Below, one piece after another: positions 3,021 through 60,594 of a stretch of DNA of 64,000 nt. The DNA is from Isoetes taiwanensis (taxonomy: Eukaryota > Streptophyta > Lycopodiopsida > Isoetales > Isoetaceae). The DNA is taken from NCBI GenBank assembly GCA_021234155.1, contig JAJEKV010000212.1, positions 248,001-312,000 of the forward strand, written 5' to 3'. The number at the start of each line of letters is the position of its first letter. The first letter of the stretch is position 1. The position numbers and the translations under genes are program-made. The notes beneath the pieces were generated by a model, which worked only from the letters and a program-made list of their open reading frames with translations, was not told the DNA's origin and searched no databases.

Positions 3021-3025
3021 TGATT

Positions 3026-8689: not shown

Positions 8690-8694
8690 GTGTG

Positions 8695-26252: not shown

Positions 26253-26258
26253 TGGGCT

Positions 26259-27012: not shown

Positions 27013-27181
27013 ATTTTTTTCCCCCCAAGGTACAATGGTAATTTTAAATGGTCTATTTATTTCCTTTGCTTCAATGGTTTAATTCAATTCATTTGCATGT
27101 TTCAAATGGATCATAAGTTACAATGGGGCTTTACAATGGCCTAAAAATCGACATTCTAATTCGAATCATTACGAATCAACA

Positions 27182-32373: not shown

Positions 32374-32439
32374 CATTGTAGGCCGCTATTGATGAGGTTT
32401 GTGGGTTACGCAACATCGATGGCATTGGCAAGCCGACAA

Positions 32440-37760: not shown

Positions 37761-37764
37761 TTAA

Positions 37765-37786
37765 GGGTAAAAGCACGCTGTGGTGT
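37765..37786 (+). repeat. TTAA element left terminal inverted repeat
   Basis: 22 bp, GGGTAAAAGCACGCTGTGGT plus GT, preceded by TTAA. Perfect complement of 60,569-60,590. Confidence 0.9.
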
Positions 37787-38039
37787 TCCAATTCGGCTGT
37801 CCCCCCTGTCCCCCCAAAATGTGGCGTTGCATCCACCACTTTTGTGGTATGAAAGTATAATTATGGCACCGCTCAGCTGTCGGTATTTAAGAATAGAGTC
37901 CCGCTCAGCTGTGGGGGAAATTCTAATTTCAAAAACTAAAATTCAAATTCAAATTCCTATTCTTTGGCCCCTTCCTGTTCTTTGCCTACGTCCTGTTCTT
38001 TGGCTCCCTCCCTACTGCGAGCTCCAATCCATTGTGGAT

Positions 38040-39673
38040 ATGGATGTCAATGAGGTAATCTGTACACAAATCGGCAAAACGAAGAAGAACCAAGGAACAA
38101 GAAATGTTGAAGAAAAAAAAGGAAAAGAAGAAAGAAGAAAAATGGAGCTTGCGGGAATGGCGGAAAGGATCCGGTTCATCAAGAAGTGCAAGCATTAAAT
38201 GCCGTATTGTCCTTAATTTGCTAACGTTTTTCCATAAACAGACCAAAAGAATGGAGGATAGCACGAAGAAAGAAATTTTTTGAGGGATAAAACATTGGAA
38301 AAATTCATAGGTGAAGAATTAAAGGATTTGGAAGCCAAGAGCATCGTTATAAGGAGCCTCTGGGACTCCATGCAGACTGTCAAACTCTCTACCGGCAATG
38401 ACGCCTAGCAGCCAAGAATAGCTGCCTTGCAATGTACGTACTGCGCCGTCGTGCGATTTCGAAACAAGTGACAAAATCAGCCAGCGAGATCTTGGAAACG
38501 TATTAGGTGTTCACCCAAGAAACCTGCAAAAGGCAAAGGTGGCAGATGAGATTATCAAGGAAACACATTACTATGTATCGGATGATAGGGAACCGCGATA
38601 CTTTGTTAGGTGCAACACTGCTTCATGAAGCACCACAAATATCTGGAGCAGAAAGGAAGGGTTCCAAACAGACATTATGTGTTTTCAGATGGTGCAGCAT
38701 ATCAATTCAAGGCTTCTAGACCATTTTACTTTGTGGCTAGGTACACAAACGACACTGATGTCTATATGATGTGGAATTTTTTTGGTTCTAACTACGGGAA
38801 AGGTGAACGATGGCAAAGGCTGCTGAGTTGAAGAGATGGTTAAGACAAGCGCAATTAAAATCTGGCGGCATAAAATTGGGTAATGCTCATGAAGTGGTAG
38901 AAGTTGCGAAGAGATGTTTACTTGTGGAACATCCGAGTGGATGAACACATCTAAAACCGATAAGAGGAAGAATATAAAAGGTTCTTTTGGGAAGTCAAGG
39001 TGGAGGATATAGATAGAAAGAAAGCATGGGGTGCGAGAAAGGATTTTGGACACTAGGCGGATCCATTGTGTACATGCATTCAATCCACGAATCTCCATTG
39101 CGATTTGCACGAGGAACTTTCATGCTTCCGCAGACTCTTTGCTTGGATGGCATGTGGGGCAGTTGTGTGAACAAGCACTACGTTGATGATTGGAAACTTC
39201 AAGTTATTGTACCATCCTCCAATGTGCATCGCGACATTGAGGACCGTAAATTGAAGGTCCTTGTTCTCCTCAATCCCACGATGTTAGCGAGAGGCACTTA
39301 GAGTTGGTGATAATTTTGCTGTCGTTGCTCCGAAAGGGAATGATGAGGGTTCTGAATTTTGGATTCTGATGTGCACAAAACCAAAATGGATAGTGGAGAA
39401 AGACTTCCAACTCAATGGAACATGGTACCTCGCCGGTGATAGTGTCATAGAAGGTATGTATTACAAGAAGGGCGCAAGATCAACCGTCAGCTATGATCTT
39501 TGCAGTAAAGACGCCTTAGGCATAGTATTCACAACACAGGTCCGTGCAATCGGACTTCACATGCCACCAACTAAGCGTCAAAAGCAGGATTTATATATAT
39601 TTTGGATCCTTTAGATGAGGAGAAAATTTTACAGAATTTACCCGAAGTTCTTTCTGATGATGATGAAATGTAA
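38040..39673 (+). pseudogene. Putative transposase, SDGxxxQFK family, copy 1
   Basis: The first exon begins MDVNEVICTQIGKTKKNQGT at 38,040, is Lys/Glu-rich and ends near 38,198. After an acceptor-like ATAAACAG, an HTH-like LGNVLGVHPRNLQKAK lies at about 38,490-38,540. The core follows: HYYVSDDREPRY (38,572), VFSDGAAYQFKASRPF (38,680), MMWNFFGSNYGKGE (38,768), CLDGMWGSCVNKHYVDDWK (39,141) and a C-terminal domain with GTWYLAGDSVIEGMYYKK, ending SDDDEM-stop at 39,673. Copy 2 shows that a central block (DFAxE...TFKEQEEVRS) is missing here. From memory, uncharacterised animal proteins share 'SDdl.HD ... sDGa..QFK ... W.Ff..shGKg..Dg', which I infer to be a transposase core. Frameshifts are frequent. 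Confidence 0.6.
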
Positions 39674-40100
39674 AACCATTATGTAGTTTTCAGAACTCAT
39701 GTGAAGTCTTGTGCTTCAGCTGTGAAAATGAGTTTGTCTTGATTTCTTTTGAAGATTTGAATTCTTCTGAAACACTTGATTCCTTTGTTTGTGAGATGAA
39801 TTGAATATGAATTTTCATTGAAATGAATCGAGGTTACAATAACAATTATGTACATAAGAAAGATATCTGATTGATTTAAGTGCGAGGTGACTCATGCACC
39901 TATATACTTCCCAATACATATGTTCCTCTCAGTTCTAGCTTTTTTGTTGCTTCTAATCTTAAAACTTCAAGCATGAACACTCTAACATCAACTAGATCAC
40001 GGTGCGAAATGTCCACAACTTGTAGTTAACCACACTTTGTCAATAATGTGAGTTTGGTTTTGTCTGTACATTTAAGTTGACTTACTAGATCAGGCAACAA
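39674..40100. other. Spacer between convergent genes, copy 1
   Basis: AT-rich 3' flanks of the two convergent genes; near-identical in the copies at 44,250-44,690 and 53,070-53,490. Probably holds both polyadenylation regions, but no site can be assigned. Confidence 0.45.
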
Positions 40101-43100
40101 TATATTCACTCCTTTTAAGTACCCCCTCACAAATTTGTCCATAAAGCGAACATACGGCAAATTGCACATGAATAACCATCGGTTTGAAGAGGCGTTCTGG
40201 AAATTTTCACAACATCTGAGGTTGTAAAGCTGAAATTATTGTGTCCAAGCAATTCCAGGAACCTGCACTCAAAGTTTGTTGTCATTGTGCCACAACAGCA
40301 AAATGCAATGAGCAAGCACTAACCTCTCAATATATGCTTCTGCCATGCAAGCCCGAGCTATCAAAGTGATATATCCCCTGGTTTTATATACGCATGCGAG
40401 ACACGCGTGGCTTACAATCAGAAAACAGGTCCAGTGATGTCCATCACAAGCAGGCAAAAACATGTACTGGCACTTATCCAGATTCACATGTTTCCTTATT
40501 GTTTTGTAACTATTTGTGTCCTTGGACAATGTCGAGTGAAAAAGAGGGTCAAAGAAATGAAAGGGATGGCTCATTCCTTGGAGAATCAAGTAGTATTCCA
40601 TGTATCTGCAAACATATGCATATCATCTGGCACAATCCTGATGATCACAAATCAGATGAAAGTATCACCTTGAGAAGAGGAGGATCAATTGATCATTGAA
40701 CCACTGCGTATCAGCTTCCAAAATTTTGATGTCGGTGGAGCTAATCACGACAGTTTGAGTTCCCTTTCGGCACCACTTCAGATGTGTATTTGGCTTTAGA
40801 TAGTCAGGGACTGCCGAAGCTCTATCATCTCTAGTTCTAAACACACACGAGAACATTTGCTCACAATCCATTCAAATATTTTAAATTGAAAAAGTACAAC
40901 ACATATCATAGAAATTTTTTTACTTATATTGACTTTCAAAGAGTTTTACAAGATTCGTTTTTATGAAAATACTTGTCGAGCATTTTCATGCGATTCTTGT
41001 GACTCTTGAGAATCCCACATGTTCCACATTTGATGTTCCTTCACATAATTTGGCACACTTTTTGCGGCGAAGTCCCTCGACCATGGTTTGAGTTGCTCCA
41101 AAAGGAAATTGGAATCCAACTTTGTGGGAGCAAAACTATTTGGACATATCATTGTGTTCGGCTGGTTGGCAGAACCCTTATATCTGCTGTCATCTATCAA
41201 CAATGTGTTTGTCACCTGGTATCTCCAAAATTTCTGGTACACTTTGGACAGATCCTTAAGGAAAATTGGCTTATTAACCACTTTTAATTTTGTGTTGGTG
41301 CAGTCATCCTGATTCCAAATAAAAAGAAATCGCCCTTATATTCTGCTAAACAACTTTCTCGTCAACAAGTCAACATTACTCTTTGCCATCTTTGGACCAC
41401 AATGCAATCTCAAATTTTGAAAAACACCATTCTAAGAACTCCACGAAATCCGGGCACGGAAGCTGCGAACTTTTGATGGTTCAATTTACGGATGGTCACT
41501 CCGGCTTACCGATCGGGGATCCTCTCTTTCAAGTCATAAAACTTGCCTAAAACCCCATTAAAATCCGAACAAGGAGAATTTCAGTTAACCTCTTGGTTTT
41601 GTTGGTTGAGGTTGTATTGGACTCGTTGAAGCGATCACGCATCTTGTCCGGATCCGGTTTCTTTGTCAACTTCATCACCTACATCGCATTTGGCTCATAT
41701 TGAAGACCAAAACTTTTTCGGTAAAGGACCCCGTCTGAGAATGAATCTCAAAGGAATTAATTTTCCCCTAAATCAGATGCACTAGGAATCTCTTAGTGAT
41801 GGCTTCCATTGCGGTAGCATTTATCTACGCAACATAATTGAAATGAGGAAGACTACGAGAAAAATACAAAAATAAATCATGTATGTGGCATCGGTACTTA
41901 CTTGATCTGACGCATTCGATTGACTATCCAAATTTCGTTTTGGAGTCTCCACGCCGTCGTATTTGGGATTGACTTAGGAGTATCAAATGGGGTGAATTCT
42001 AGGTATAATAGGAGGTATCTTGCGAGTTTCATAAGCGATCGAGGCGTGGATAAGCTGTTGGATATCCTTAGTCTCAAATTTACGCAGTGCGCAAACACTA
42101 AGTCGGTAGACACGTGACAACATCGATAAACATTAGTTAAGGCACTTGTTTGCAGTGAATGTATATTGTTTGCGTGAACAATATCAAGCCCTGGGTGAGT
42201 TGACAACCATTCAAGAGGGTCACGCACCGGGCTTTTACTCTCTTTCGATGTTCTGTTTATATATATCTAAAGTGCCCCCCTAAAATGAGCGGCGATCTCA
42301 TCGGGGGCACTTTAGATACAATAAATAGGACAAGCAAAAGAGACTAAGCAACCAGGATGGAAGAGACTAAGCGGGGATGAAAGAGACACGAGTACAAGCA
42401 TCGAGACTTCCCAAACCTTGCTTTCACCCCTCTTTGGACTTACTTGTGTCCATTGGTTCTTGTGGTACCACTCGAACACCAAAAGTCAAAAGCCATGTCT
42501 CGATCATAATGTGGCCCTGGCGGGGCTGCAGCCAGGTTCTAGAGTGTGCGCAAAACAAATTCAAAATCAATAGAGTCTTTAGACGAGGGTTAGAGATGAT
42601 AATATTTACCTCAAATGGTGTGATAGACATGGAATGTGATCTTGGTGACGCATTACGCTATATGGCAACCGACAACATTTTACCCTCCCATTTCGGACAA
42701 GCGTCCACAAAATGGACAACCTTCATTACCCTCTTCTTACGCCTCGGGAAGCATTGGAAGTGCGGGATCTAAAGGAGTGTCATGACCACTACATTTCGAA
42801 AAAAAATCTCAAATCTTTGCATTCGATGTAGCAGCTCCAGCCAGATAAGTCTTCACATGCCTTTAGCTCAATTTCGGTTTGTTAATTCCTTATTTAATTG
42901 TTTCAGCCCGGGCAACCTTTGTACCATTTAGCTCTTCATCCTTTAGTTAAACACAACCCGAACACCCTCGCTACTTCGGAGTTCTTTGTCATGATTGATT
43001 GCCATCCGTGCAAATCAGCTCTAATTTCGATGCTTTATGCTCCATCAACTCAATCTTTCTTTTTGATATCATTTTTCCTATCCTCGTTTGCTTGCAATCG

Positions 43101-43310
43101 TTGCTTGCATCTATCAAACCTAGCTGATGTTGCAGCCAACCATTCCTTCACAAAGTCCGCCCATAGTACGCAAAACAAAACACTACGTTATATGTCGACC
43201 TCCTAACATAGTAAGCCCGCGTCTTGATGGAAAACCACAATCACACACCACACAACACAAGGTAGTCTCTACACACCACCACATACCACCACCCACACAA
43301 CAACATTTTG
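40100..43310 (-). pseudogene. C48 (Ulp1-like) protease gene, copy 1
   Basis: Minus strand. Best-kept copy. The 5' part near 43,150-42,950 encodes a coiled coil (ARFDRCKQRLQANEDRKND, KKIELMEHKASK). An exon around 42,650-42,600 ends SITPFE at a donor GAG|GTAAATA. The catalytic part is 40,601-40,320 with VNLDKCQYMFLPACDGHHWT (catalytic His) and CFLIVSHACL, where other C48 proteins often have an Asp. The next exon, 40,315-40,127, has ISRTPLQTDGYSCAICRMFA (Gln and Cys). Fold: SUMO-protease type. The possible Asp-to-Val change and the broken N-terminal exons make activity doubtful. The gene's first exons seem to lie at 60,361-59,870. Confidence 0.6.
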
Positions 43311-43331
43311 CCACGGTACACACCACACAAC

Positions 43332-43740
43332 CGTGTGGTGGTGGTGGTGTGTGTGTGTGGTGGTGGTGGTGGGGGTGGTGGTGGTGGTGGTGGTGGTGGT
43401 GTGTGCGTGGTGGTGGTGGTGAGGTGTGGTGGTGGGGTTTGGTGGTGGTGGTGGTGGGGTGTGTGGTGGTGGTGGAGTGTGGTGGTGGTGGGTGTGGTGT
43501 GGGACATGGTGGAGTGTGGTGATGGGGGGTGTGGTGGTGGGGTGTGGTGGTGGTGGAGTGTGGGGGGTGTGGTGGTGGGGTGTGGTGTGGTTGTGGTGGA
43601 GTGTGGTGGTGGTGGATTGTGGTGTGGGACATGGTGGAGTCTGGTGGTGTGTGGTGGTGGTGGAGGAGTGGTGGTGGTGGTGGAGTGTGGTGATGGTGGA
43701 GGTGTGTGGTGTTGGTGGTGGAGTGTGGTGGTGGTGTGTG
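43332..43740 (+). repeat. (GTG)n-rich array, copy 1
   Basis: About 410 bp of GTG/GGTGGT sequence broken by GTGTGGTGTGGGACATGGTG and TGATGG. Long frames on both strands (poly Val/Gly/Trp or His/Thr/Pro) are products of the repeat and not genes. It follows the 5' part of the protease gene in both full copies. Confidence 0.85.
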
Positions 43741-44249
43741 CCGGTTGTGTGAACAAGCACTACGTTGATGATTGGAAACTTCAAGTTATTGTACCATCCT
43801 CCAATGTGCATGCCGACATTGAGGACCGTAAAAATCAGGGTCCTTGTTCTCCTCAATCCACGATGTTAGCAGAGGCACTTAGAGTTGGTGATAATTTTTT
43901 GTCGTTGCTCGAAAAGGGAATGATGAGGGTTTGAATTTTGGATTACGATGTGCACAAAACCAAAATGGATAGTGGAGAAAGACTTCCAACTCAATGGAAC
44001 ATGGTACCTCTTGGTGATAGTGTCATAGAAGGTATGTATTACAAGAAGGGCGCAGGATCAACCGTCAGCTATGATCTTTGCAGTAAAGACGCCTTAGGCA
44101 TAGTATTCACAACACAGATCTGTGCAATCAGACTTCACATGCCACCAACTAAACGTCAAAACAGGACTGTATATAGGCTGGATCCTTTAGATGAGGAGAA
44201 AATTTTACAGAATTTACCCGAAGTTCTTTCTGATGATGATGAAATGTAA
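43741..44249 (+). pseudogene. SDGxxxQFK protein, C-terminal part only
   Basis: Starts directly at the end of the (GTG)n array with CVNKHYVDDWKLQVIVPSSN, so the array replaces everything upstream. It continues through GDSVIEGMYYKKGAGSTVSY and YRLDPLDEEKILQNLPEV to the stop at 44,249. The final 100 codons (43,938-44,249) are open. A partial copy made by internal rearrangement; no promoter or start. Confidence 0.65.
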
Positions 44250-44689
44250 AACCATTCTGTAGTTTTCAAAACTCATGTGAAGTCTTGTGCTTCAGCTGTG
44301 AAAATGAGTTTGTCTTGATTTCTTTTGAAGATTTGAATTCTTCTGAAACACTTGATTCCTTTGTTTGTGAGATGAATTGAATATGAATTTCATTGAAATG
44401 AATCGAGGTTACAATAACAATTATGTACATAAGAAAGATATCAAATTGATTTAAGTCACGAGGTGACTCATGCACCTACATACTTCCCAATACATATGTT
44501 CCTCTCAGTTCCAGCTTTTGTTGCTTCTAATCTTAAAACTTCAAGCATGAACACTCTAACATCAACTAGATCCTGGTCTGAAATGTCCACAACTTGTAGT
44601 TAACCACACTTTGTTAATAACAGAGTTTGGTTTGTCTGCTGCATTTAAGTTGACTTACTAGATCAGGCAACAATATATTCACTCCTTTT

Positions 44690-46185
44690 AAGTACCCCCT
44701 CACAAATTTGTGCATAAGCGAACATACTGGCGATTGCCACATGAATGACCATCGGTTTGAAGGCGTTCTGGAAATTTTCACAACATCGAGGTTGTAAAGC
44801 TGAAATTATTGTGTCCAAGCAATTCCGGGGAACACGCACTCAAAGTTTGTTGTCATTGTGCCACAACAAAGCAAAATGCAATGAGCAAGCACTAACCTCT
44901 CAATATGTGCCTTACGCCATGCAAGCCCGAGCTATCAAAGTGATATATCCCCTGGTTTATATCTCAATGCGAGACAGCGTGGCTTACAATCGAAAAGCAG
45001 GTCGATTGATGTCCATCACAAGCGAGGCAAAAACATGTCTTGGCACTTATCCGATTCACATGTTTCCTTATTGTTTTGTAACTATTTGTGTCCTTGGACA
45101 ATGTCGAGTGAAAAAGAGGGTCAAAGAAATGAAAGGGATGGCTCATTCCTTGGAGAATCAAGTAGTATTCCATGTATGCGCAAACATATGCATATCATCC
45201 GGCACAATCGATGATCACAAATCGAATGAAAGTATCACCTTGAGAAGAGGAGGATCAATTGATCATTGAACCCTTTGCGTATCGGCTTCCAAAATTTTGA
45301 TGTCGGTGGAGCTAATCCACGGCGGTTTCAGTTCCACTTCGGCACCACTTCGGATGTGTATTTGGCTTTAGATAGTCGGGGGGGTTTGCGAAGCTCTATC
45401 ATCTCTAGTTCTAAACACACACGAGAACATTTGCTCACAATCCATTCAAATATTTTAAATTGAAAAAGTACAACACATATCATAGAAATTTTTTTACTTA
45501 TATTGACTTTCAAAGAGTTTTACAAGATTAGTTTATGAAAATACTTGTCGAGCATTTTCATGCGGATTCTTGTGACTCTTGAGAATCCCACATGTTCCAC
45601 ATTTGATGTTCCTTCACATAAAGGCACACTTTACGCGGCCCGAAGTCCCTCCGACCATGGTTTGAGTTGCTCCAAAAGGAAATTGGAATCCAACTTTGCC
45701 GGGAGCAAAACTATTTAGACATATCATTGTGTTAAATTTGGTTGGCGGAACCCTTATATATCTTTGTCATCTATCAACAATGTGTTTGTCACCTGGTATC
45801 TCCAAAATTTCTGGTACACTTTGGACAGATCCTTAAGGAAAATTGGCTTGTTAACCACTTTTAATTTTGTGTTGGTGCAGTCAACCTGATTCCAAATAAA
45901 AAGAAATCTGCCCTTATATTCATGCAGCAACTTTCTCGTCAACAAGTCAACATTACTCTACAAACATCGCAGGTGCAAGTGGAATTCTTCGGATGTTTGG
46001 TTCTCATCCCATTGAGTCCATCCACTAGCATTTGCATCCTCACGTGCTCAATGCAACAGCAACTATTGAAGTCCTTCAATTTCACAACAAACCAGGGTTT
46101 TAGCTTCTCAAAAGCTCGAAGACGAATCTTAATTTCTGGATGTTGGTCCAGAAACCTCTTGAACAATAGCATCTGCATGAAATGA
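44690..46185 (-). pseudogene. C48 protease gene, partial copy
   Basis: Minus-strand copy of 40,100-41,400 or so. The His block is visible as CFCLACDGHQSTCF (44,964-45,173), with the HHW of copy 1 changed to HQS and frames shifted. The region 45,945-46,180 has KIRLRAFEKLKPWFVVKLKD and encodes a segment that is less clear in copy 1. It stops at the CAC/GTG junction at 46,186. Confidence 0.5.
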
Positions 46186-46670
46186 ACACTAAACTGTTAG
46201 GATGTGTATACCACACCAAACCATGCACCAAACCATGCCCCACACTCATCATATTCACCAGAGCGAGCACCTTAGTGCTGTGTACATTACCACACACCAA
46301 ACCACACCCCACCACACACCATACCATTCACCACACACCATACACCAAATGGTGGAGTGTGGAGTGGTGGTGCTGAATATGAGCCAAATGCGGATGTAGG
46401 TGATGAAGTTGACAAAGAAACCCGGATCCTGGACAAGATGCAGACTGCTCAACGAGTCCAATACAACCTCAACTAACAAAAACCAAGAGGTTAACTGAAA
46501 TTCTCCTTGTTCTGGATTTAATGGGGTTTTAGGCAAGTTTTATGACTTGAAAGAGAGGATCCCTGCATGACCATCCAGAAATTGAACCATCAAAAGTTCG
46601 CAGTTTCCAGGCCTGGATTTCAGGAGTTCTTAGAATGGTGTTTTTCAAAATTTGAGATTTATCACATGAA
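46186..46670 (-). repeat. CAC-rich junction and inverted segment
   Basis: 46,186-46,370 is rich in CACACCA, turning into GGTGGAGTGTGG at its right end. 46,372-46,665 is the reverse complement of about 41,395-41,700 (and of 54,760-55,060), so part of the protease gene is inverted here. It marks a rearrangement point inside the TTAA element. Confidence 0.75.
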
Positions 46671-48297
46671 CTTGGTCAATGCAGGGCACACCAGCATAAA
46701 ATTGCAAGTACAGGAAGCTTGTGGAGATCTATATTGTGTCCAAAGAGTGAATTAGATGAGTTTCACAAGAAGGCGTGCATCCTTGGAAATTGTGGAGTGT
46801 GGAATCAAGAAGTTTTCAGACTGTCCCATGGAAGGAAGTGGCGTTAGGAAAATGAAATGGGAGTACATTGACTATGAAAAAGACAACGTCTCGAAGTTAC
46901 AGTAGAAGACCGACTCATCAAGACAATGAGACGAGAACCCAAGGAGCTCGGATAAACCGAAGAAGCGTCTAAAAAATCTTTCCTTGCATAATTTGGTACC
47001 AATGGCGGGCAAAAGCAGTTTAAGGAGCTTACGGAGAATCTCCCGCCGGATGCATGTCTCGGTAGTGGATTTTGCGAGAGAACTATACATTCAAGGAACA
47101 AGAGGAGGTGCGGTCGATCATTTGGGTCAATAACCCAGATTACCATTTTGGTTCAAATAACATATCGGTATGAGTCGATTGGCGGATGAGATTATCAAGG
47201 AAATACATTACTATGTATCGGATGATAGGGAACACGATACTTTGTTAGGTGCAACAACGCTTCATGAAGCACCACAAATATCGGAGCGAGAAAGGAAGGG
47301 TTCCAAACGGACATTATATGTTTTCGGATGGTGCAAACATATCAATTCAAGGCTTCTAGACCATTTTACTTTGTGGCTAGGTACACAAACGATTAATCGA
47401 TGTCTATATGATGTGGAATTTTTTGGTTCTAACCACGGGAAAGGTGAACACGATGGCAAAGTCTGGCGAGTTGAAGAGATGGTTAAGACAACTGCAATTA
47501 AAATCTGGTGACATAAAATTGGGTAATGCTCATGAAGTGGTAGAAGTTAGAAGAGATGTTTACTTGTGGAACATCCGAGTGGATGAACACATCTAAAACC
47601 GATAAGATGAAGAATATAAAAAGGTTCTTTTGGGAAGTCAAGGTGGAGGATATAGATAGAAAGAAAGCATGGGGTGCGAGAAAGGATTTTTGGACACTAG
47701 GCGGATCCATTGTGTACATGCATTCAATCCACGAATCTCCATTGCGGTTGCACACGAGGGAACTTTCATGCTGCGGACTCTTGCTTGGATGGCATGTGGG
47801 ACGTTTGTGTGAACAAGCACTACGTTGATGATTGGAAACTTCAAGTTATTGTACCATCCTCCAATGTTCATCTCGACATTGAGGGACCGTAAATCAGCCA
47901 GGTCCTTGTTCTCCTCCAATCCACGATGTTAGCGAGAGAGGCACTTAGAGTTGGTGATAATTTTTCTTTTGTCGTTGCTCAGAAAGGGAATGATGAGGGT
48001 TGAATTTTGGATTCGATGTGCACAAAACCAAAATGGATAGTGGAGAAAAGACTTCCAACTCAATGGAACATGGTACCTCGCCGGTGATAGTGTCATAGAA
48101 GGTATGTATTACAAGAAGGGCGCAAGATCAACCGTCGGCTATGATCTTTTTGCGATAAAGCGCCTTAGGCATAGTATTCACAACACGATCTGTGCAATCG
48201 GACTTCACATGCCACCAACTAAACGTCAAAGCAGGATTTGTATATAAATTTGGATCCTTTAGATGAGGAGAAAATTTTACAGAATTTACCCGAAGTT
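46671..48297 (+). pseudogene. SDGxxxQFK protein, copy 2, cut by CACTA
   Basis: Contains the central part missing from copy 1: a Cys-rich ACILGNCGVCG..KFSDCP block (about 46,770), SVVDFARE / YTFKEQEEVRSIIWVN in neighbouring frames (about 47,050-47,140), then YYVSDDREHD (47,210), a garbled DGxxxQFK, VEFFGSNHGKGEHDG (47,412), CVNKHYVDDWKLQVIVPS (47,808) and GDSVIEGMYYKKGARSTV. The order D(FAE), SDDxxHD, SDGxxxQFK fits the animal family recalled under copy 1. The last codons are separated by the CACTA element and resume at 53,043, with the stop at 53,069. Confidence 0.6.
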
Positions 48298-48960
48298 CAC
48301 TACAAGAGATGGGGTCAATTAGTGTCATTGATTGTGTCAATTTCTGGCCTAGAATTGCAACTCAAATTTTTTTAATAGCTGACGCTATCGGTGTCAAAGC
48401 CCGCTGACACAAATGCAGCAGCGAGAATGTCACCTATAATGTCAGCACGTTTGTCACCTATAGTGTAAGTCACCATGTCACATGTAATGCCACACATAGT
48501 GTCACATGTAAAGTCACATATAGTGGCACCTATAAAGTCAAGTATAGCGTAAAATATTTCGTCAACTAGTACGTCACCAATAACATCAACTGCGATGTCA
48601 CCAGTAATGTCAGTGGTAGGGTCAACTATAGAATCACATATAGCATCATCTATAGTTTCACATGTAACCTCATGTGTAAGGTCACTGGTAACAGCATTGG
48701 TAATGTTAGCCACCCAAAATGTCGTAAATAATGCCATCTATTTCCTGAATATCAATGTCATCTATTTTGCCAGTATCAATGTCATTTATTGATCCACTGT
48801 TATGGGCATTTCTTGATCAGACTGTAATAGTAGATTGTCCCATATAGTGGCACTACTTATGTCACTCAAGTTTAATATCACATAGTGTCACTTATATCAT
48901 AGGATGTTGTGTCACTTGTAAGACATCTAATCAATTGTATTACATAAAATAGCAATTCCA
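48298..48960 (+). repeat. CACTA left end with subterminal repeats
   Basis: About 25 TGTCA / GTCAC motifs, often as GTCACCTATAGTGTCA-like pairs at 10-15 bp spacing (48,420-48,720). Such subterminal arrays are typical of CACTA elements and are thought to bind the transposition proteins. Confidence 0.85.
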
Positions 48961-51899
48961 CTTATTTCAATACAAATAATGAATTCATAAAGCTATTACA
49001 TAATATACATTAAAAATCTCCAAGAAAATAGCCAATATATTAAAACATCGTCTTATAAATCAACTACAAAATTGGAACAAATAGTAAACAATACAATTGA
49101 AGTCAATATTCTCAAATTTTCTAAATTATTCAAGTACTGAAGATTCTGGCTCCCCTTGCTTAATATGTTGGAGCATGCACAATCTTGTTCACATGTACTT
49201 GCTGGCGCTTGCAGAAAGCATGATGTTCCATGATGAAGAACCTAGGCTCCATAAGGCACGGCAAATGAGCGAAGTGATTGTGATTTTAATAAACGCAAAC
49301 CTGCATGATAAATAACACTTGTCGCTTCTATGCTTCCACCATAAGATAATACTTGAGCTCTTGATACAATTCAACTTAGTTATAATTACATGGAGCTGGC
49401 ATGCTTTCTACTGAGGCCTTGCATGAAGCATTGCAGAAGAATATCTCCTCATAAAATGCATTTTCTCCATCAATGCAATTATTGCTATCGTTCTCGAGTA
49501 AAAAAATGCCAAGATACACTCAAAAGAGCTAGGCTGGAACATCATGCAGATCTGGCACCTGCTAAAAGACAATCATCTTGTGTCCTCTGAAGATCGTTAT
49601 GGTTATGAAAATGATTCGTTAGTCTGATATGGTACTTACATCGTATTTCTATAATACATTGTATTCCTATAATGCAGAAATTGGCAAGCACAACAACAAT
49701 CATGATGGCCAAACCTGCAAATATGATTAGTGCTATATAATCTTGGGCTGACAATAACTAGAAGTTGTTGCATGAAATTTGATGGCTCTTGAGCATCTAC
49801 TAATATATAATTTATAATTTGTTCAACTCTATAGAATACTAGCTCAGCTCGTTTTTTTTGAATCTAAATCTGCCAAGTTCTGTCAGGTTTGCTGTCTGCA
49901 TATCCAATTCGTCTGCATCTAATCAACCCTTCTTTGCACCTACATTTTCTTCCTAAAATGATCTAAGAAATATGAATGCTATTTGTTACCTGAATTATCC
50001 GTAAAAACAGAGATTTGCAGCCGCCTAGATCTGTGAAGAATAGAGCAAACCTAGAAGGGAAAATCTGGTCTGTACTGCAAAGAATCATCTGTAGAAGGCA
50101 AGCAAACTGCTAAGTATCCCAGATCAAATCCAGCATACCAATCGTGGCATCAAGCCTTTGAAACTATCATCTGGAATCTCTTACAGCAGTTCGACCAACA
50201 GGTAGTAGCCGCGCGAACTTTGCTGTGGTCGCTTGCCCTAACGTTCCAGTTTTTGCCCTATCAAAACTAAGAGAAAGAATCGGCCTCACAATAAAACAAA
50301 AAAATTTGTGAACAAATTTAAAAGCATAAACAATGGCAATGAGCATTTGTGTAAATTAATAATAATCTATGAGAAATTTATGCCGCCGCGAACATTTTTT
50401 AAGTTCCAAATCCAAATGGACTCTATCGCTCCAAAACATTGGAGAAGCACCAATGTCGGTTACCGATTTTTTTTTTTTTAATTGTATACAGGCAAATGCA
50501 ATTGGCTCCAGAGCCTGGTAGCTCTAGATAAGTTGCAACAGAGAAAAACTAATAAATATTTCAAACCTTTCTTATGCCTCAAGCAACCAACCATTAGATT
50601 TGTCATATCCTTGGCTTAATGTCACTAAGATAAAATGTGAATTCAACTTCTAAGCGTTGTGTCTTTCTTCAAAAATCTTGTAATGAGGATTCAAAAGTGG
50701 GAATGCATTGTCTAACTTGCTCTTGCAGGATGCTATTGGGAATGCAGGCTCACTTTTGAACACAATAATATTGAACCAATAATTTGTATAATTTGTTTGT
50801 ACAAACACATCCTAAGAGATCCCTCTCTTGTTCATCCAAGAGGATCATCATTTTCTTCTAGTTATGTTGAAGATGCCAGTCTTCTTATGAGGAGAATTGG
50901 TCTCAAAAGTAGTTGTGCCAATTTTTTCTAATGCAATTCTAAAGGAATAAAAACTGAAGTAATTTGTTGATTTGAACAGTTTAATTCTGGTGCTTCGCCC
51001 CTTTACCTCATCATCTGCTTTTCCTTTAGCATTTGTGGCTTCATCAATATTGACTTCATTTAAAATATTCATGTCTACTTTACTTGGAAGGCAATTTGTG
51101 TCTTGGAACCATGTTTATAGGTGCATACTAACACCCCATATTTGCAATGCAGCAACCTTAGTTTGCCGCCATGTTTGCTATTGCGACTCAAGCCTAAAAA
51201 TTCCAATGCTAGGAGGAAAATATGTTTGGAATATCTCCAGTAAGCCCACAGTTAGGAAGGTAATGTGAGTGCTAGGATGGTTTCAATTGCGAAATGCACG
51301 GTAAATCTCCATTCCCTTATACAAAAAAGATTAGATGCAAAAAAAGCAAAGTTTAGGTAATTAAATCCATTTTATGAGGCTGAGACTATAACTTACCTAA
51401 TAAATCCTCTTCGTTGTAGTGCCAAATCCCCGAATCCAATTAAGACGGCCATAGCTAGACGCAATGTAGTGTAGCAGACATTAATATAGTAGACTCCAAA
51501 TGCAAATTCAAACTCCTGAAGCCAAATTAATTTCCAAATTTTGTTGCGCATAAGTTAGAGCAAAGTAGAAGGGCAAGAGAACAAAACAAATACAGAGCAG
51601 CCGCATTTCTTGCATCCCGCTATGGGAGATGAGGAAGAGAAGGGGAAGGTCTACCATGGCCACGAAATATGCATTAGCAAGACTGCCAAGCTCTTGTAGC
51701 ATGAAGCGGATTAAGCATTATCTCAATCTCGCGAAGGAGAATGGCAATATATGGAACTTAGATCACTGCCCGGAGGCCAAAGAAATGTTCATGTGGATGG
51801 ATGGTCACGAGATTTATTTAGACATAGCTCCTAATAATACCATCATCCATTTTAAAGCTTTGGCTGGAATAACTTAATCAATTTCTTCCCTTGCACTCT
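48961..51899. other. CACTA interior, no recognised transposase
   Basis: AT-rich with scattered frames of 60-80 codons. Two are mildly interesting: minus 51,072-50,848 (NILNEVNIDEATNAKGKADD ...) and plus 51,629-51,877 (RIKHYLNLAKENGNIWNLDH ...). I recognise neither. They could be captured host exons or chance. Confidence 0.45.
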
Positions 51900-52449
51900 C
51901 ATTAGGGATTTTTTGAGATCATAAAAGGGCCTTCTAAGAATTGCTGATTAAGCTACATGAACTACCAATCAGAAAACAGAACTGGTAATCCAGTCAGCAA
52001 AACAGTTATAACTAACTCACTGGATCACATTTTCTAGCATAAGTGTTGATAGAAAAGTCCAAATGAGCTCTTGTTTGGTGCAATAGATAGATCTCATTGA
52101 GATCTTTCCAACCTTGAGTGGTTTGCATATCTTTTAGCCCCCTAGGATAGTAAAAAATGGTAAAAATCATATTTTTTGGAGTTTTGACAATCATAAGTGG
52201 TTAAAATATATGTGAAGCATCTAAGGTTAGAAACATCTCAATGAGATCTATCTATTGCACTAAACGAGAGCTCATTTGGACTTTCCTATCAACAGTTATG
52301 CTAGAAAATGTGATCCAGTAAGTTAGTTATAACAGCTTTACTGACTGGACCCGTCAGGCTCTGATTTCTGATTGGTAGTTCATTTATCTTCATTTGGCTT
52401 AGTTGGCATGTTTTGAAGGCCCTTTTTTAATCTAAAAAAAACCCTAATG
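51900..52449. repeat. 550-bp foldback (long inverted repeat)
   Basis: Arms of about 210-220 bp (51,900-52,115 and 52,222-52,449) pair with roughly 85-90% identity by eye, around a loop of about 105 bp. Shared blocks: CATTAGGG at the tips, GAACTACCAATCAGAAA, GGATCACATTTTCTAGCATA, GCAATAGATAGATCTCATTG. No clear target duplication was seen. Confidence 0.85.
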
Positions 52450-52589
52450 TGTATCGCTTTCTTCTCAGCAAATCAGAAACACAAAGGCAAGATCAAGTAA
52501 CATCCCTTGTGATGTTAATACCTACTATGGATGGCATAAAGTGATAAAGGAGTTGTCAAAAATGGTGCATCCTCAGTCAAATGTATAAT

Positions 52590-53042
52590 ATTAACACTCA
52601 TAGTATCACTACATGAACTTGACACAAAGTTTGACACAATTGATGGGACAACATTTGACAATATTGGTGATATTAATAGCAACGTTTATTGTAGCATATA
52701 CTATGGCCACACAAACATTGACAATGTTTGTGACACTAAAGGTGCTATTATATTTGATGCTATTAACAACATCTATAATGTCACTAGAGAGCACTAACAC
52801 TAATGCTGATATTATATATGCCACAACTGGTAACGCTATAACCGATGCTAATAGCAACACATATAGTGTCATTACAAATTAATGACAATGTCGATGACAC
52901 AAAAAGTGAGGATATAGGTGGCACAAATTGTGGCACCTATAGCATCACCTATGGATAAATGTCACCAATAATGTCATAGTGTATACTTTCCAATATTTTG
53001 GTGACATTTTGATGACATAAATTGACCCATTCTCTTGTAGTG
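52590..53042 (-). repeat. CACTA right end with subterminal repeats
   Basis: Many TGACA and GACAAT motifs in complementary orientation to the left end, finishing ATTGACCCATTCTCTTGTAG plus TG. Long frames here (52,609-52,882) are by-products of the repeat. Confidence 0.85.
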
Positions 53043-53489
53043 GTTCTTTCTGATGATGATGAAATGTAAAACCATTCTGTAGTTTTCAGAACTCATGTGA
53101 AGTCTTGTGCTTCAGCTGTGAAAATGAGTTTGTCTTGATTTCTTTTGAAGATTTGAATTCTTCTGAAACACTTGATTCCTTTGTTTGTGAGATGAATTGA
53201 ATATGAATTTTCATTGAAATGAATCGAGGTTACAATAACAATTATGTACATAAGAAAGATATACAGTGATTTAAGTACGAGGTGACTCATGCACCTACAG
53301 ACTTCCCAATACATATGTTCCTCTCAGTTCTAGCTTTTGTTGCTTCTAATCTTAAAACTTCAAGCATGAACACTCTAATATCAACTAGATCACGGTGCGA
53401 AATGTCCACAACTGCAGTTAACCACACTTTGTCAATAATGAGTTTGGTTTGTCTGCTTTACATTTAAGATTGACTTACTAGATCGGGGC

Positions 53490-56400
53490 AACAATATATT
53501 CACTCCTTTTAAGTACCCCCTCACAAATTTGTCCATAAACGAACATACGGCGATTGCCACATGAATGACCATCGGTTTGAAGAGGCGTTACGGAAATTTT
53601 CACAACATCGAGGTTGTAAAGCTGAAATTATTGTGTCCAAGCAATTCCGGGAACACGCACTCAAAGTTTGTTGTCATTGTGCCACAACAAACAAAATGCA
53701 ATGAGCAAGCACTAACCTCTCAATATGTCTACTTACGCCATGCAAGCCGGAGCTATCAAAGTGATATATCCACGGGTTTATATCTAAATGCGAGACACGC
53801 GTGGGTTTACAATCGAAAACAGGTCCGATTGATGTCCATCACAAGCGAGGCAAAAACATGTAATCGGCACTTATCTAGATTCACATGTTTCCTTATTGTT
53901 TTGTAACTATTTGTGTCCTTGGACAATGTCGAGTGAAAAAGAGGGTCAAAGAAATGAAAGGGATGGCTCATTCCTTGGAGAATCAAGTAGTATTCCATGT
54001 ATCACGCAAACATATGCATATCATCCGGCACAATCGATGATCACAAATCGAGATGAAAGTATCACCTTGAGAAGAGGAGGATCAATTGATCATTGAACCA
54101 CTGCGTGTATCGGCTTCCAAAATTTTGATGTCGGTGGAGCTAATCACGGCGGTTTTGGTTCCACTCGGCACCACTTCGGATGTGTATTTGGCTTTTAGAT
54201 AGTCGGGGACCGGAAGCTCTATCATCTCTAGTTCTAAACACACACGAGAACATTTGCTCACAATCCATTTAAATATTTTAAATTGAAAAAGTACAACACA
54301 TATCATAGAATTTTTTTTTTACTTATATTGACTTTCAAAGAGTTTTACAAGATTCATTTATGAAAATACTTGTCGAGCATTTTCATGCGATTCTTGCCGA
54401 CTCTTGAGAATCCCACATGTTCCACATTTGATGTTCCTTCACATAAGGCACACTACGCAGCCGAAGTCCCTCAAGCCATGGTTTGAGTTGCTCCAAAAGG
54501 AAATTGGAATCCAACACCTCGGGAGCAAAACTATTTGGACATATCATTGTGTTCTATTTGGTTGGCGAGAACCCTTATATCTCTTGTCATCTATCAACAA
54601 TGTGTTTGTCACCTGGTATCTCCAAAATTTCTGGTACACTTTGGACAGATCTTGGTGCGATCATCATCGATTCCAAATAAAAGAAATCGCCCTTATATTC
54701 TGCAAACAACTTTCTCGTCCAACAAGTCAACATTACTCTTAGCCATCTTTGGACCACAATGCAATCTCAAATTTTGAAAAACACCATTCTAAGAACTCCT
54801 GAAATCCAGGCACGGAAGCTGCGAACTTTTGATGGTTCAATTTACGGATGGTCACTGCTCTACCGATCACGGGGATCCTCTCTTTCAAGTCATAAAACTT
54901 GCCTAAAACCCCATTAAAATCCGAACAAGGAGAATTTCAGTTAACCTCTTGGTTTTGTTGGTTGAGGTTGTATTGGACTCGTTGGAGCGATCCGCATCTT
55001 GTCCGGGATCCGGGTTTCTTTGTCAACTTCATCACCTACATCCGCATTTGGCTCATATTCGGCACCAAAACTTTTTTTTCCGGTGAAGGACCCCGTCTGG
55101 AATGAATCTCAAAGGGAATTAATTTTCCCCCTAAATCGGATGCACTAGGAATCTCTTCGTGATGGCTTCCGATTAGGTAGCATTTATCTACGCAACATAA
55201 TTGAAATGAGGAAGACTACTGAGAAAAATACAAAAATAAATCATGTATGTGGCATCGGTACTTACTTGATCTGATCGCATTGATTGACTATCAAATTTCG
55301 TTTTGGAGTCTCCACGTCGTCGGTGGGATTGACTTAGGAGTATCAAATGGGGTGAATTCTAGGTACAACGGGAGGTATCTTGCGGTTTCATAACTGGGAT
55401 CGAGGCGTGGATAACTGTTGGATATCCTTAGTCTCAAATTTACGCAATTCTGCAAACACTAAGTCATGGACCACGTGACAACATCGATAAACATTAGTTA
55501 AGGCACTTGTTTGCGGCGAATGTATATTGTTTGCAGTGAACAATATCAAGCCTGGTGAGTTGACAACCATTCAAGAGGGTCACGCGACCGGGCTTTTACT
55601 CTCTTTTCGATGTTCTGTTTATATATATCTAAAGTGCCCCTAAAATGAGCGAGCCATCTCATCCCGGGGGCACTTTAGATACAATAAATAGGACAAGCAA
55701 AAGAGACTAAGCCGACAGGGATGGAAGAGACTAAGCCAGGATGAAGGGGCACTTTAGATACAATAAGCGGGACAAGCAAAAGAGACTAAGCCGGCCCGAG
55801 GATGGAAGAGACTAAGCCGGGATGAAAGAGACACGAGTACAAGCATCGAAACTTCCCAAACCTTGCTTTCACCCTTTTTGGACTTACTTGTGTCTATTGG
55901 TTCTTGTGGTACCACTCGAACACCAAAAGTCAAAAGCCATGTCTCAGTCATAATGTGGCCTGGCGGGGGGCTGCAGGAGGTTCTAGAGTGTCGCAAAACA
56001 AATTCCAAATCAATAGAGTCTTTAGGCGAGGGTTAGAGATGATAATATTTACCTCAAATGGTGTGATAGACATGGAATGTGATCTGGTGGATCGTACGCT
56101 CGCTAGCAATAACCGGCAACATTTTACCCTCCCATTTCGGATAACGTCCACAAAATGGACAACCTTCATTACCCTCTTCTTACGCCTCGGGAAGCATTGG
56201 AAGTGCACGGGGATCTAAAGGAGTGTCATGACCACTACGCCGAGAAAAAATCTCAAATCTTTGCATTCGATGTAGCAGCTCCAAAGATGAAGTCTTCACA
56301 TGCCTTTAGCTCAATTTCAGTTTCTGTTAATTCCTTATTTAATTGTTTCAGCCCGGGCAACTTTGTACCATTTAGCTCTTCATCCTTTAGTTAAACACAA

Positions 56401-56760
56401 CCCGAACACCCTCTCGCTACTTTCGGATTTCTTTGTCATGATTGATTGCCATCTGTGCAAATCAGCTCTAATTTCTGATGCTTTATGCTCCATCAACTCA
56501 ATCTTTCTTTTGATATCATTTTTCCTATCCTCGTTTGCTTGCAATCGTTGCTTGCATCTATCAAACCTAGCTGATGTTGCAACCATTCCTTCACAAGTCT
56601 GCCATAGTCTGCAAAACAAAACACTACGTATATGTCAGCCTCCTAACATAGTAAGCCCCGTCTTCGATGGAAAACCACAATCACACACCACACAACACAA
56701 GGTAGTCTCTACACACCACCACATACCACACACCACACAACATCGCATTTTGATAATTAC
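53490..56760 (-). pseudogene. C48 protease gene, copy 3
   Basis: Minus strand, parallel to 40,100-43,310. The 5' part is clearest here: 56,619-56,380 encodes GMVATSARFDRCKQRLQANE, then DRKNDIKRKIELMEHKASEI, a coiled coil. The catalytic exon (53,998-53,807) begins MEYYLILQGMSHPFHFFDPL, but the His block is frameshifted (VMDINRTC), so this copy is dead as read. Confidence 0.55.
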
Positions 56761-56776
56761 ACACCACACACAACAC

Positions 56777-57192
56777 TGTGGTGGTGGTGGTGGTGTGTGG
56801 TGGTGGTGGTGGTGGTGGTGGTGGTGGTGCGTGGTGGTGGTGGTGGTGGTGTGTGGGGGTGGTGGTGAGGTGTGGTGGTGGGGTTTGGTGGTGGTGGTGG
56901 TGGGGTGTGTGGTGGTGGTGGAGTGTGGTGGTGGTGGAGTGTGGTGTGGGACATGGTGGAGTGTGGTGATGGGGTGTGGTGGTGGGGTGTGGTGTGGTGG
57001 TGGTGGAGTGTGGGGTGTGGTGGTGGGGTGTGGTGTGGTTGTGGTGGAGTGTGGTGGTGGTGGATTGTGGTGTGGGACATGGTGGAGTCGGTGGTGTGTG
57101 GTGGTGGTGGAGGAGTGTGGTGGTGGTGGTGGAGTGTGGTGATGGTGGAGGTGTGTGTGGTGGTGGTGGTGGAGTGTGGTGGTGGTGTGTGG
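56777..57192 (+). repeat. (GTG)n-rich array, copy 2
   Basis: Same architecture as copy 1, about 415 bp, interrupted at its end by the hAT element. It resumes at 58,917-59,000. GTGTGTGG at 57,185-57,192 is the left target duplication of the hAT element. Confidence 0.85.
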
Positions 57193-58916
57193 CAGGGTTG
57201 CCCTTAAGGCCATATCTGCATAGGCGTGATTTAGAAGGTGAGGCGAATCATAAGCTTTCTATATTAATTTTGTAGGCGATTACTTTTTGCAACTTGAACT
57301 GTTTCATAGAAACTCTGGCAAACCTTGCCAACGTTAATGTGGTAATTGAAATAAATAAATAAGATGTCAATTCATATACAACTTACAGGATTAATGAAAC
57401 CTATTATGTTTAGCAAAATTTGAGTAGTTGTTGATTTTTTTAGTATTCTACTATGGTCCACTAGAATTAGCAAACAATTACTTGATCTACAATGTTGTTA
57501 AGGAAGGAAGGAAGGAAGGAAGGTACTTTTATCGTCCACGGAGACCAATCGGTCTATGGGACCCAATACAAAAAGCAAAGACAAGCGGATTATTGCCCGG
57601 ATTAAAAACCCTCCCCGAAGGGTTTTCGAGGGAAAAACCGTGGCGACAAAGAACCTGGGCCGACAAACCGTGCTAATCATATAAAAATGCGAAACATCCC
57701 AATATATACAAGTCATGCACCACCCCGTAGTGCCTAGTCAGCGGACACCCGGTGAGGGGCAAATGTGACCTCGCAGGTCCGGTACCTCTGGATGTATGAC
57801 CCGTGGCACGCATCGACGGTGTGTTCATCAGCAAATGCAAGGGCACGTCCGGTAGGTACTAAGGGAGCGTCTCCGCCCGGACCGACGGGGGAACACTAGG
57901 CAACTCTGGAAAGTGTGAGACTCATCCTCAATGGCACCCGTTTGACAAAGACCGACAGAGTTCGCCCCCGGGGCTCCCAATCCACACGCCCATCTCGACG
58001 CGAAGATGGTGGGCACCGTGCGAATGGAGGCAATGAGTCCGCGCTTTTCGTGGGCGGCCGGGAACGCAGTAGATTTGTGGGCCCGGGCTAACACGGGGTT
58101 GATGTGCTCCTTGTAATGGGCCATTTTGACCTGCTCTAGAGCAATGGGGTCCCGTGAGCTTGCCAAGGAAACAAGCATCTAGGTACTCCCGATTTTATCC
58201 CGCCACGACATTTGCGCCGCTACCAACAGACGATCTCAGGTGCTCGCGACGTTCCATCCGGGCGAACCAGTCGATCTCTCTTACCCCTCCAACAAAGCCC
58301 TAAGCGCGCGGACTCATGGCCACAAGTAAGCCCAGTGCTGAGGAGCGAGCATCACCCATAGTAACCACTTTTAGAAAATAGACGATGTGTCTATCAAGGG
58401 CTGCCCATCACTGCTGCAAGAATCCATTTTCGCAGAGAATCCGATAGGGGATCAAGGTTTCACCCCAAGTGCCCGTGCCAAAATGCCTACACTTTTGCTC
58501 CAAGTCATTCCAGGTCGCCCAAAGAGACGGCCGCCCCAAACCTCGACCCGCATTGCGGAAGGACAGCTCGACCGGTGCGGAGCGGATGTGACCGATGGCC
58601 CCAATCATATAGCTCTACACAGGTGGTTGTTGATCACGCATGGCATAAAGCGCTTTCCAGCCTGCTGTCACCCGCAAGCGGATAGACGCCTCTATGATCC
58701 TAAACACTTAGATCCATGGAACTGGAGGCGAAACTCTAGATCTGAGCTTAAGAATGCACGGCTAATTTAAGAAAGGCGGGCGGACGAAATGGTAAAACTT
58801 TGGCGAAAGAATATAATTTATTTTCAATGGTAACCTATTCAGCTTTAGTATCTCATTTTCGAAAATATTCAAAATATAGCCATTTGGCTATAAATAGCCC
58901 TTTAAGGGCAACCCTG
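57193..58916. mobile_element. hAT element, non-autonomous, with LINE inside
   Basis: 1,724 bp. Termini are CAGGGTTGCCCTTAA on the left and its complement on the right (TTAAGGGCAACCCTG), with 8-bp duplication GTGTGTGG at 57,185-57,192 and 58,917-58,924. No hAT transposase frame is present. Without the LINE insertion the hAT element would be only about 450 bp, a MITE-like size. Confidence 0.88.
57501..58765 (-). pseudogene. 5'-truncated LINE inside the hAT element
   Basis: Minus strand. The tail (GGAA)n is at 57,501-57,523, next to the signature TTATCGTCCACGGAGACC. Coding blocks: LWATWNDLEQKCRHFGTGTW (58,608-58,408), corresponding to the GTWDKLERVQKAFMTYSLG region of the LINE at 8,812-9,534. 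Then AAHEKRGLIASIRTVPTIFA and a Cys/His knuckle LCQTGAIEDESHTFQSC at about 57,900. Same LINE family as the one at 3,021-10,250. Only the ORF2 C-terminal third is left. The 5' border is approximate. Confidence 0.78.
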
Positions 58917-59000
58917 GTGTGTGGTGTGGGAGTGTGGCGGTGGGAGATGGTAGAGTGTAGTGGTGGGAGATCGTGGGGTGTGGTGTGGGACATGGTGGAT
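58917..59000 (+). repeat. Rest of (GTG)n array, copy 2
   Basis: GTGTGTGGTGTGGGAGTGTGG and related sequence up to GTGGGACATGGTGG. It continues 56,777-57,192 after removal of the hAT insert. Confidence 0.8.
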
Positions 59001-59159
59001 GCCAACAACTCACCACCACCACACATACCTCATCTATCATTCTGGCCATTAGAGGAAATTTGTGATCTCATTTCATCCCCATAAGAATCCTCCAATGGAA
59101 TGGCTACCCTCTATTAACTGCAATTAATGCAGCACCAACAACTTCATTGCTATTGTTTT

Positions 59160-59445
59160 TCCCCCATAACTTTTGATCCACTTGTCAAAATGTTGTGGCG
59201 TTTGTTGCATTAGATGCGGAATGAAAAGATCTTTCCAATGATATATGGTTATGATGTATTTCAATATGGTCATATGCTTTAACCTTAAAAAAATATGATT
59301 TTTTGCTTATTTCTTATATATTTATATCGTAAAAGATGTATGAATGGGTTATCACTAGATAGATCTTGTGAAGACGAACCCATTGCTACAAAAAGTTTTT
59401 GAATCAGAGTTCTGGATCAAAAGTTATAATGAAAAAATGATACTT
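59160..59445. repeat. Weak foldback structure
   Basis: ATAACTTTTGATCCA near 59,165 is complementary to TGGATCAAAAGTTATAATG at about 59,412-59,432. Between, GATCTTTCCAATGATAT faces a GATCTATCTAGTGATAA-like complement. Arms of about 110 bp at moderate identity, located in the 5' part of the protease gene region. Confidence 0.4.
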
Positions 59446-59869
59446 GAAGTTAGTTGCAATTTGCATTAATTCTGTTTGCCACATATCTTTGGAATGAGAT
59501 ATACCGGAGCTCTTCTCTTATTGGGCCGGTTTAAAAAGTTGACATGGCATTTTAAGCATCCCTTAATGGCACAAAATGTGATCTTATTTTTCCTCTAATG
59601 ATCCATTGCACGAAATGCCCCACAGATGGCATCATAGAGACACAACATGACAATACAGCCAACATGATGCAAAATGGTAGTAGACATACCTGATTCTTGA
59701 AGTGGATTTGATGTTACCTTTTTACGTGTTGATAGAAACAACTAGATCAAGCTTGAGATTTTTTCAATTTGTAACACAACTAATAATTGAACATACCTGC
59801 AATGGCATGTTTTGGTCTCGAACATTGCTCGCTTTTTTTTTTTGATTGTGAGTTCGTGATTGAATGTGT

Positions 59870-60361
59870 GGTCTAGAGGAACCTGATTTGGTTTTTTCCC
59901 TATCATCTTCATCATCCCCTGTCACTTTTACTATTTTCCTCCTCGTCGGGTTGGATTTGCCTATGCTTTCTCTTGGGTCTAGAAGAACTGGCCCTCTGCT
60001 TTCTCATCGGGAGTTTTATAATAATCAGAAGCTCTTCCAATTAATGACCTCCCCTTTATATGCGGATAATAAGCCTTTGCCTGGGTTCCAGGAGCCATTC
60101 GCCCCATGTATGTGGCTTCCTGTAATTCTTTTGTAAATTTGCATGAACTCTTTGTATTGTTCATTGCTCGATTCTTCAACCTGTACAAGAAAACATATGC
60201 CTTAATTTTTGCGGTTTGAACAAAACATTTGGGAAAATACACGTAGCCGATTTATTTGGAACTCTGTCACCCCAAAGCTTCTTTAGATCTTCGTGGGGCA
60301 CAATCTCTTCTTTGAGGAGAGATTTCATCGTGTAACCAATGGCGTTCAATTCTGACTCCAT
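59870..60361 (-). CDS. 5' exons of the TTAA element's right-end gene
   Basis: Minus strand. An ATG at 60,361 starts MESELNAIGYTMKSLLKEEI, then VPHEDLKKLWGDRVPNKSAT. A second block follows an acceptor-like TTGTACAG at about 60,180: EEQSSNEQ-type sequence with YKEFMQIYKRITGSHIHGAN, and later GDDEDDREKTKSGSS, an acidic linker. These lie directly inside the right terminal repeat, as the first MDVNEV exon does on the left. They are presumably the N-terminus of the protein that ends in the C48 protease, but the link across the (GTG)n array is inferred. Function of this N-terminal part is unknown. Confidence 0.5.
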
Positions 60362-60568
60362 TAGGGTTCAATCGGCAAGAAGCGGCAAAAAAGCAGAGGA
60401 AGAGGTGATTCTTTCTTAATTCAAAAAGGTGGACAATGACGTGGCATACAATTCAAAATAACCGACGCTCATTAATTCAAGACTCCATAATCTCCGCTTC
60501 GGTATGCACCACCCGATTCTACCACAAAGGTGGTGCCAAAATGTGGCGTCAAAATGCACGTTTTTGAT

Positions 60569-60590
60569 ACACCACAGCGTGCTTTTACCC
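60569..60590 (-). repeat. TTAA element right terminal inverted repeat
   Basis: ACACCACAGCGTGCTTTTAC plus CC, perfect complement of 37,765-37,786, followed by TTAA. Confidence 0.9.
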
Positions 60591-60594
60591 TTAA

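Follow-up and report, generated by a model that had tools for sequence, protein, structure and literature searches.

A 22.8-kb locus of the lycophyte Isoetes taiwanensis is probably a rearranged copy of a ~10-kb class II transposon family with a predicted DDD transposase and a NIF/Ulp1-like partner

The stretch analysed here, called the window, comprises 64,000 nucleotides of the Isoetes taiwanensis assembly GCA_021234155.1 (contig JAJEKV010000212.1, positions 248,001 to 312,000) and contains a 22.8-kb transposon copy at 37765..60590. The original prediction, made from the sequence alone, placed in a streptophyte an element with perfect 22-bp terminal inverted repeats (TIRs) inside TTAA. The host is indeed a lycophyte, the sequence GGGTAAAAGCACGCTGTGGTGT is found without mismatch at 37765-37786 and, inverted, at 60569-60590, and TTAA borders both ends at 37761-37764 and 60591-60594. 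Allowing up to 6 mismatches, the 25-mer formed by TTAA plus the first 21 bases of the TIR occurs nowhere else in the window. The two inward-reading genes proposed near the ends are also present, with start codons at ATG 38040 (plus strand) and ATG 60361 (minus strand). The locus is probably a rearranged copy of a ~10-kb class II family that has a three-aspartate (DDD) transposase and a NIF/Ulp1 partner gene and is Sola or close to it. Its features are given below relative to L031, a complete copy of 9,826 bases with both TIRs from the same genome.

37761..37764, unstranded: left target-site duplication, 4 bp, TTAA here; other copies vary
37765..37786, plus: left 22-bp TIR, exact match; 611 genome ends at up to 1 mismatch
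37765..38537, plus: left element end, 91% to L031 element 1-801; holds the transposase start ATG 38040
38539..43740, plus: first internal piece, corresponding to L031 element 3567-8729
38610..39673, plus: predicted transposase 3' part in the first piece, with SDG...QFK, a broken GKG motif, a Cys-containing C-terminus and stop at 39671
40029..40871, minus: partner gene, Ulp1/SENP-like stretch, HW...FDS...QTDG.SC
40964..41678 (approximate), minus: partner gene, NIF/FCP1-like phosphatase domain, DFNGVL...LLIDD
43735..45959, plus: second internal piece, corresponding to L031 element 4186-6409
45957..46659, minus: two inverted internal pieces, corresponding to L031 element 3046-2629 and 6736-6433
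46661..48297, plus: third internal piece, first half, corresponding to L031 element 3046-4691
48298..53042, unstranded: nested CACTA element, CACTACAAGA...TCTTGTAGTG ends, 3-bp duplication GTT
53043..57192, plus: third internal piece, second half, corresponding to L031 element 4688-8730
57193..58916, unstranded: nested, presumably hAT-like element, CAGGGTTGCCC ends, 8-bp duplication GTGTGTGG
58916..60590, plus: right element end, corresponding to L031 element 8722-9826, with 59042-59600 extra
59800..60361, minus: partner gene, likely 5' exons, ATG 60361, MESELNA...; putative splice sites
60569..60590, minus: right 22-bp TIR, inverse of the left TIR
60591..60594, unstranded: right target-site duplication, TTAA, equal to the left copy

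When the flanks of the window copy are joined, older repeats elsewhere run unbroken through the junction, and both ends therefore belong to one insertion; three of these empty-site repeats were inspected, and they show 70-75% similarity and small gaps close to the junction. The claim of a 22.8-kb transposon is right in that there is one insertion, and had missed the nested CACTA and hAT-like elements as well as the internal rearrangement. The join 38537/38539 omits positions 802-3566 of the L031 element, including the first candidate catalytic Asp, and at three of the joins adjacent blocks share 3-6 bases, as microhomology and faulty gap repair might leave behind. The CACTA element contains a near-palindrome with 179-nt arms at 51989-52349, and the element at 57193-58916, which we take to be hAT-like from its hallmarks, sits in a GTG microsatellite. 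In the majority sequences of the ends, CCACYTTTGTGGTA, with inverted CCAC/GTGG, begins 72 bases inward of the left end and 58 bases inward of the right end and is a possible candidate for a transposase binding site.

In the 1,658,258,908-base I. taiwanensis assembly, the 22-bp TIR has 611 matches at up to one mismatch (308 forward and 303 reverse) and its reversed-pattern control has none, and the end counts give a family of roughly 300 copies. The left and right 500 bp of the element have 546 and 817 candidate places, respectively; 40 places of each end were scored, the window's own ends included, and identity to the window ends in the 80 matches listed is 91-100% on the left and 95-100% on the right. 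Across 30 left-end loci, the TIR is exact in 18, has one mismatch in 10 and two in 1, and is absent from L021. End pairs were surveyed in 100 exact ends listed of the 611, as inward pairs at most 30 kb apart. Among these matches listed, there are 21 inward pairs, the window included, spanning 9.5-26.6 kb with a median of 10.6 kb; 11 of them span 9.5-10.6 kb, no pair is shorter than 9.5 kb, and no miniature forms were seen. The check for other copies sharing both ends thus succeeded, and the TIRs, 4-bp duplications and many further copies identify the stretch as a transposon. The usual element is ~10 kb long and 22.8 kb is atypical. The larger size, given earlier for the transposon, is ruled out as the transposon unit by L031 (9.83 kb) and by the median of the listed pairs. 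At another locus (L013, G000:C907:40535761 and 40537559), one copy apparently lies within the left portion of a second copy, at a distance of 1.8 kb from the end of the latter.

The 22.8-kb arrangement could partly be an artefact in which the assembly merged similar copies. The assembly is described as nanopore-based (PMC8566536), the repeated internal pieces of the window copy are ~92% alike, and the 801/3567 join occurs in the window copy alone among 30 left ends. On the other hand, the duplication and the empty sites connect the two ends to a single insertion, the nested elements have clean duplications of their own, and other end pairs are equally wide (19.2, 22.3 and 26.6 kb, among the matches listed). 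Such merging is accordingly held to be unlikely, though worth serious thought.

An exact 4-bp duplication is present in 11 of 12 paired insertions (TTAA, GCCT, TGTG, GTAC, TGTA, AACT, ATTA, ATTA, ATGC, ATCT and GTAG), and the twelfth pair, L031, has TGAC/TGAT with one mismatch; a duplication match over 5-10 bases is found in none of the 12. In a flank survey of 52 independent insertions, which left out L021 because it lacks the TIR, 46 different 4-mers lie beside the element and TTAA occurs once. The target is therefore any 4-bp site, without sequence choice, and the TTAA of the window is due to chance. TTAA is ruled out as the target site, and the TTAA targeting from which a piggyBac or Kolobok link had been drawn does not hold.

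The plus-strand protein with the SDGxxxQFK motif (QFK protein), from a family for which no Pfam model was found, is predicted to be a DDD transposase with an RNase H/integrase-like core. Its three Asp residues (in DFAEN, SDG and GKGxxDG) are invariant in all 28 family members and in two predicted models occupy RNase H positions, and the equivalents of D171, D256 and D297 are the candidate catalytic residues. The fold check, with this predicted fold and the three Asp, agrees with the proposed transposase core. Of the motif set SDDxxHD, SDGxxxQFK and GKGxxDG read earlier in the window copy, SDDxxHD and GKGxxDG can be read jointly in just one frame, 47161-47511, in the third internal piece, which has VVDFA, SDDREHD and GKGEHDG in different frames; in the first piece these two motifs are broken as SDDREPRY and GKGERWQ. 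In addition, one QFK relative, P0036, carries an OTU domain.

Instead of Sola, the family might represent an undescribed DDD superfamily that has 4-bp duplications by coincidence. None of the 28 family members matches a Pfam transposase model at E 1e-3, and neither the 52 pattern matches in a prokaryotic contig scan nor the 56 in a viral scan yielded a confirmed relative. The conserved Cys cluster of the family, with a C-terminal Cys domain in members close to the window protein, also fits a separate superfamily. Against this, the family is broad, with 4 named members of 78 (two from Clytia, one each from Thrips palmi and Rotaria, all with uninformative names), and repeat databases probably hold it already; to our knowledge, Pfam lacks other known superfamilies too. 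A superfamily of its own thus appears rather improbable.

The minus-strand partner, in hand-read sequence, has a NIF/FCP1-like domain that matches PF03031 (E 2.7e-13, 50.4 bits vs a cut-off of 21.8) and, downstream of it, an Ulp1-like stretch that matches SENP5 (E 6e-5), where motifs for the His-Asp-Gln-Cys set of C48 peptidases can be read in different frames. The proposal of an Ulp1-like partner was right in that an Ulp1-like stretch lies on the minus strand, and had overlooked the NIF/FCP1-like domain. NIF/FCP1 phosphatases usually have the catalytic motif DxDx(T/V), from which the partner departs by reading DFNG, with Asn replacing the second Asp. Its database relatives P0038 (Gb_27773, by its prefix probably from Ginkgo, E 3.2e-20) and P0039 (E 5.0e-8) likewise have DxN, and the NIF/FCP1-like and Ulp1-like parts need not be catalytic. 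In P0039, NIF is combined with a plant mobile domain (PF10536), a hint that plant mobile families acquired NIF domains on more than one occasion. The two domains are assigned to one putative protein from their order on one strand, and neither of the two proteins found in the database search joins NIF and Ulp1; the 5' exons at 59800-60361 are presumably linked to this part. L031 has the region that encodes both domains, and L034 and L035 have it wholly or in part. The majority sequence of this region is still frame-broken. No report of a transposon with an FCP1/NIF gene or a NIF-Ulp1 pairing was found among the papers listed in searches of the open-licence PMC literature.

Neither gene of the window copy is spanned by an intact frame, and the copy as read is not autonomous. 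The frame breaks have to be seen together with the base composition. The observed/expected ratios of CAG and CTG are 0.59 and 0.62 in the element, 0.78 and 0.74 in the left flank, and 0.56 and 0.56 in the short right flank. Disagreement with the majority sequence near CAG/CTG is 0.138 at left and 0.163 at right ends, compared to 0.047 and 0.030 elsewhere (29 left and 30 right ends); six control trinucleotide pairs have 0.019-0.059, and CCG/CGG, which are also CHG contexts, 0.08. The median substitution distance away from CHG sites is 2.6% at left and 1.9% at right ends. The assembly was built from nanopore v9.4.1 reads with Illumina polishing (PMC8566536). The CAG/CTG errors are likely miscalls at methylated CHG sites, and many frame breaks may thus be false. 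Pseudogene calls for methylated plant transposons in nanopore assemblies can therefore be sequencing artefacts. The CAG/CTG depletion extends to the flanks, so false frameshifts may also affect other genes read from the assembly.

In the proposed mechanism, the transposase would pair both ends and then cut, the 3' ends would be joined to the target at positions staggered by 4 bp, and host repair would produce the duplication. The NIF/FCP1-like and Ulp1-like protein may assist via SUMO or RNA-polymerase phosphorylation pathways. Internal deletion and duplication, most likely through faulty gap repair, together with later CACTA and hAT-like insertions, would have brought the window copy to 22.8 kb. 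A bolder and doubtful extension is that proteins with QFK and HGKG motifs form a broad eukaryotic DDD superfamily without a published name, whose lycophyte branch gained a gene resembling C-terminal domain (CTD) phosphatases and SUMO proteases that steers host transcription or SUMO control during transposition. The partner would connect a transposon to phosphatase as well as SUMO pathways of the host. For a widespread uncharacterised protein family, the ends and the duplication are now defined and a catalytic triad is predicted, so that its role as a transposase can be put to the test.

Several results weigh against a Sola-like family with this transposase and partner. Foldseek alone gives no match at E 1e-3 or better (the best, NurA, has 1.4e-3), the fold claim comes from a VIA-align second look, which covered the transposase families in the VIA lists, and the second predicted model is weak overall, with a predicted local distance difference test (pLDDT) score of 68. 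The inspected copies have broken frames, and L032 and L036 match the first 569 and 2439 bases only, within the stretch fetched, with no transposase core. The Ulp1-like stretch has no Pfam match, and the two proteins found in the partner database search both have NIF and neither has Pfam C48. Moreover, the Sola label is drawn from duplication length, triad and host range, and Sola has been reported from bacteria too (PMC10741241), whereas the Isoetes family has no confirmed relative in the prokaryotic contig scan. The uninformative names and the core not shown in 2 of 7 long copies would suit a QFK protein that is a host gene or passenger of an element mobilised by another enzyme, which is nevertheless very unlikely given the predicted integrase-like DDD core and its presence inside 5 of the 7 copies with at least 10 kb retrieved (window, L031, L033, L034 and L035).

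Elsewhere in the window, two related blocks at 26118-28744 consist of tandem-unit arrays (47-271 bp) with GGTGATCC/GGATCACC motifs, and two related copies of one repeat, inverted to each other at 22398-22857 and 31854-32317, are 71% alike over 495 columns. An open frame at 32382-32720 is a candidate chitinase-like sequence by eye.

Among known systems, typical Kolobok lineages are described as TTAA-specific, with 5'-RR ends and C/DxxH between the second and third catalytic residues (PMC9587614), and piggyBac is likewise TTAA-specific. Even though the Isoetes element has 5'-RR ends and TTAA flanks the window copy at either end, a TTAA-specific element of either type is hardly credible and such forms are refuted, with TTAA at 1 of 52 insertions, no Pfam piggyBac match in the family members searched and no C/DxxH between the second Asp and the third in any of 23 aligned members. 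KolobokP has 3-5-bp duplications without strong target choice (PMC9587614), but also long terminal direct repeats, which were not seen in the Isoetes element.

Ginger1 resembles the Isoetes element in its 4-bp duplication and in the integrase-like core, predicted here; its Ulp1 or OTU protease domains (PMC2836005) recall the Ulp1-like stretch of the partner and the OTU domain of P0036. In contrast, Ginger1 is reported with CCGG or CCGT/ACGG targets, a TGTNR start and a Gypsy-type integrase (PMC2836005), whereas the Isoetes element has varied targets, GGGTA ends and no Pfam integrase match in 28 family members at E 1e-3; Ginger1 is ruled out by target, ends and integrase. Mutator-like elements (MULEs) of plants are also reported to carry an Ulp1-type protease (PMC2836005), but their duplications are given as 7-12 bp (PMC10741241) against 4 bp here, and the 28 family members have no Pfam MULE match.

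Sola is described with a DDD transposase, 4-bp duplications, TIRs of 11-1124 bp and lengths mostly of 2-9 kb, some above 15 kb (PMC10741241). The Isoetes family, at 9.5-10.6 kb, is slightly above the usual range, and its NIF-Ulp1 partner goes unmentioned in the Sola descriptions drawn on here. The name 'Cc8L18.2' does not occur in the 12 papers listed of 346, and its link to Cotesia, reported as Sola2-rich (PMC7822920), is suggestive only. The Isoetes family and Sola share the DDD triad (predicted here), the 4-bp duplication, a short TIR (22 bp here) and seed-free plant hosts, with Sola reports for Ceratopteris (PMC6890710), Physcomitrella (PMC9033089) and Azolla (PMC6786969). Compared by description, Sola or its close vicinity is the likeliest place for the Isoetes family because of its duplication length, triad and host range.
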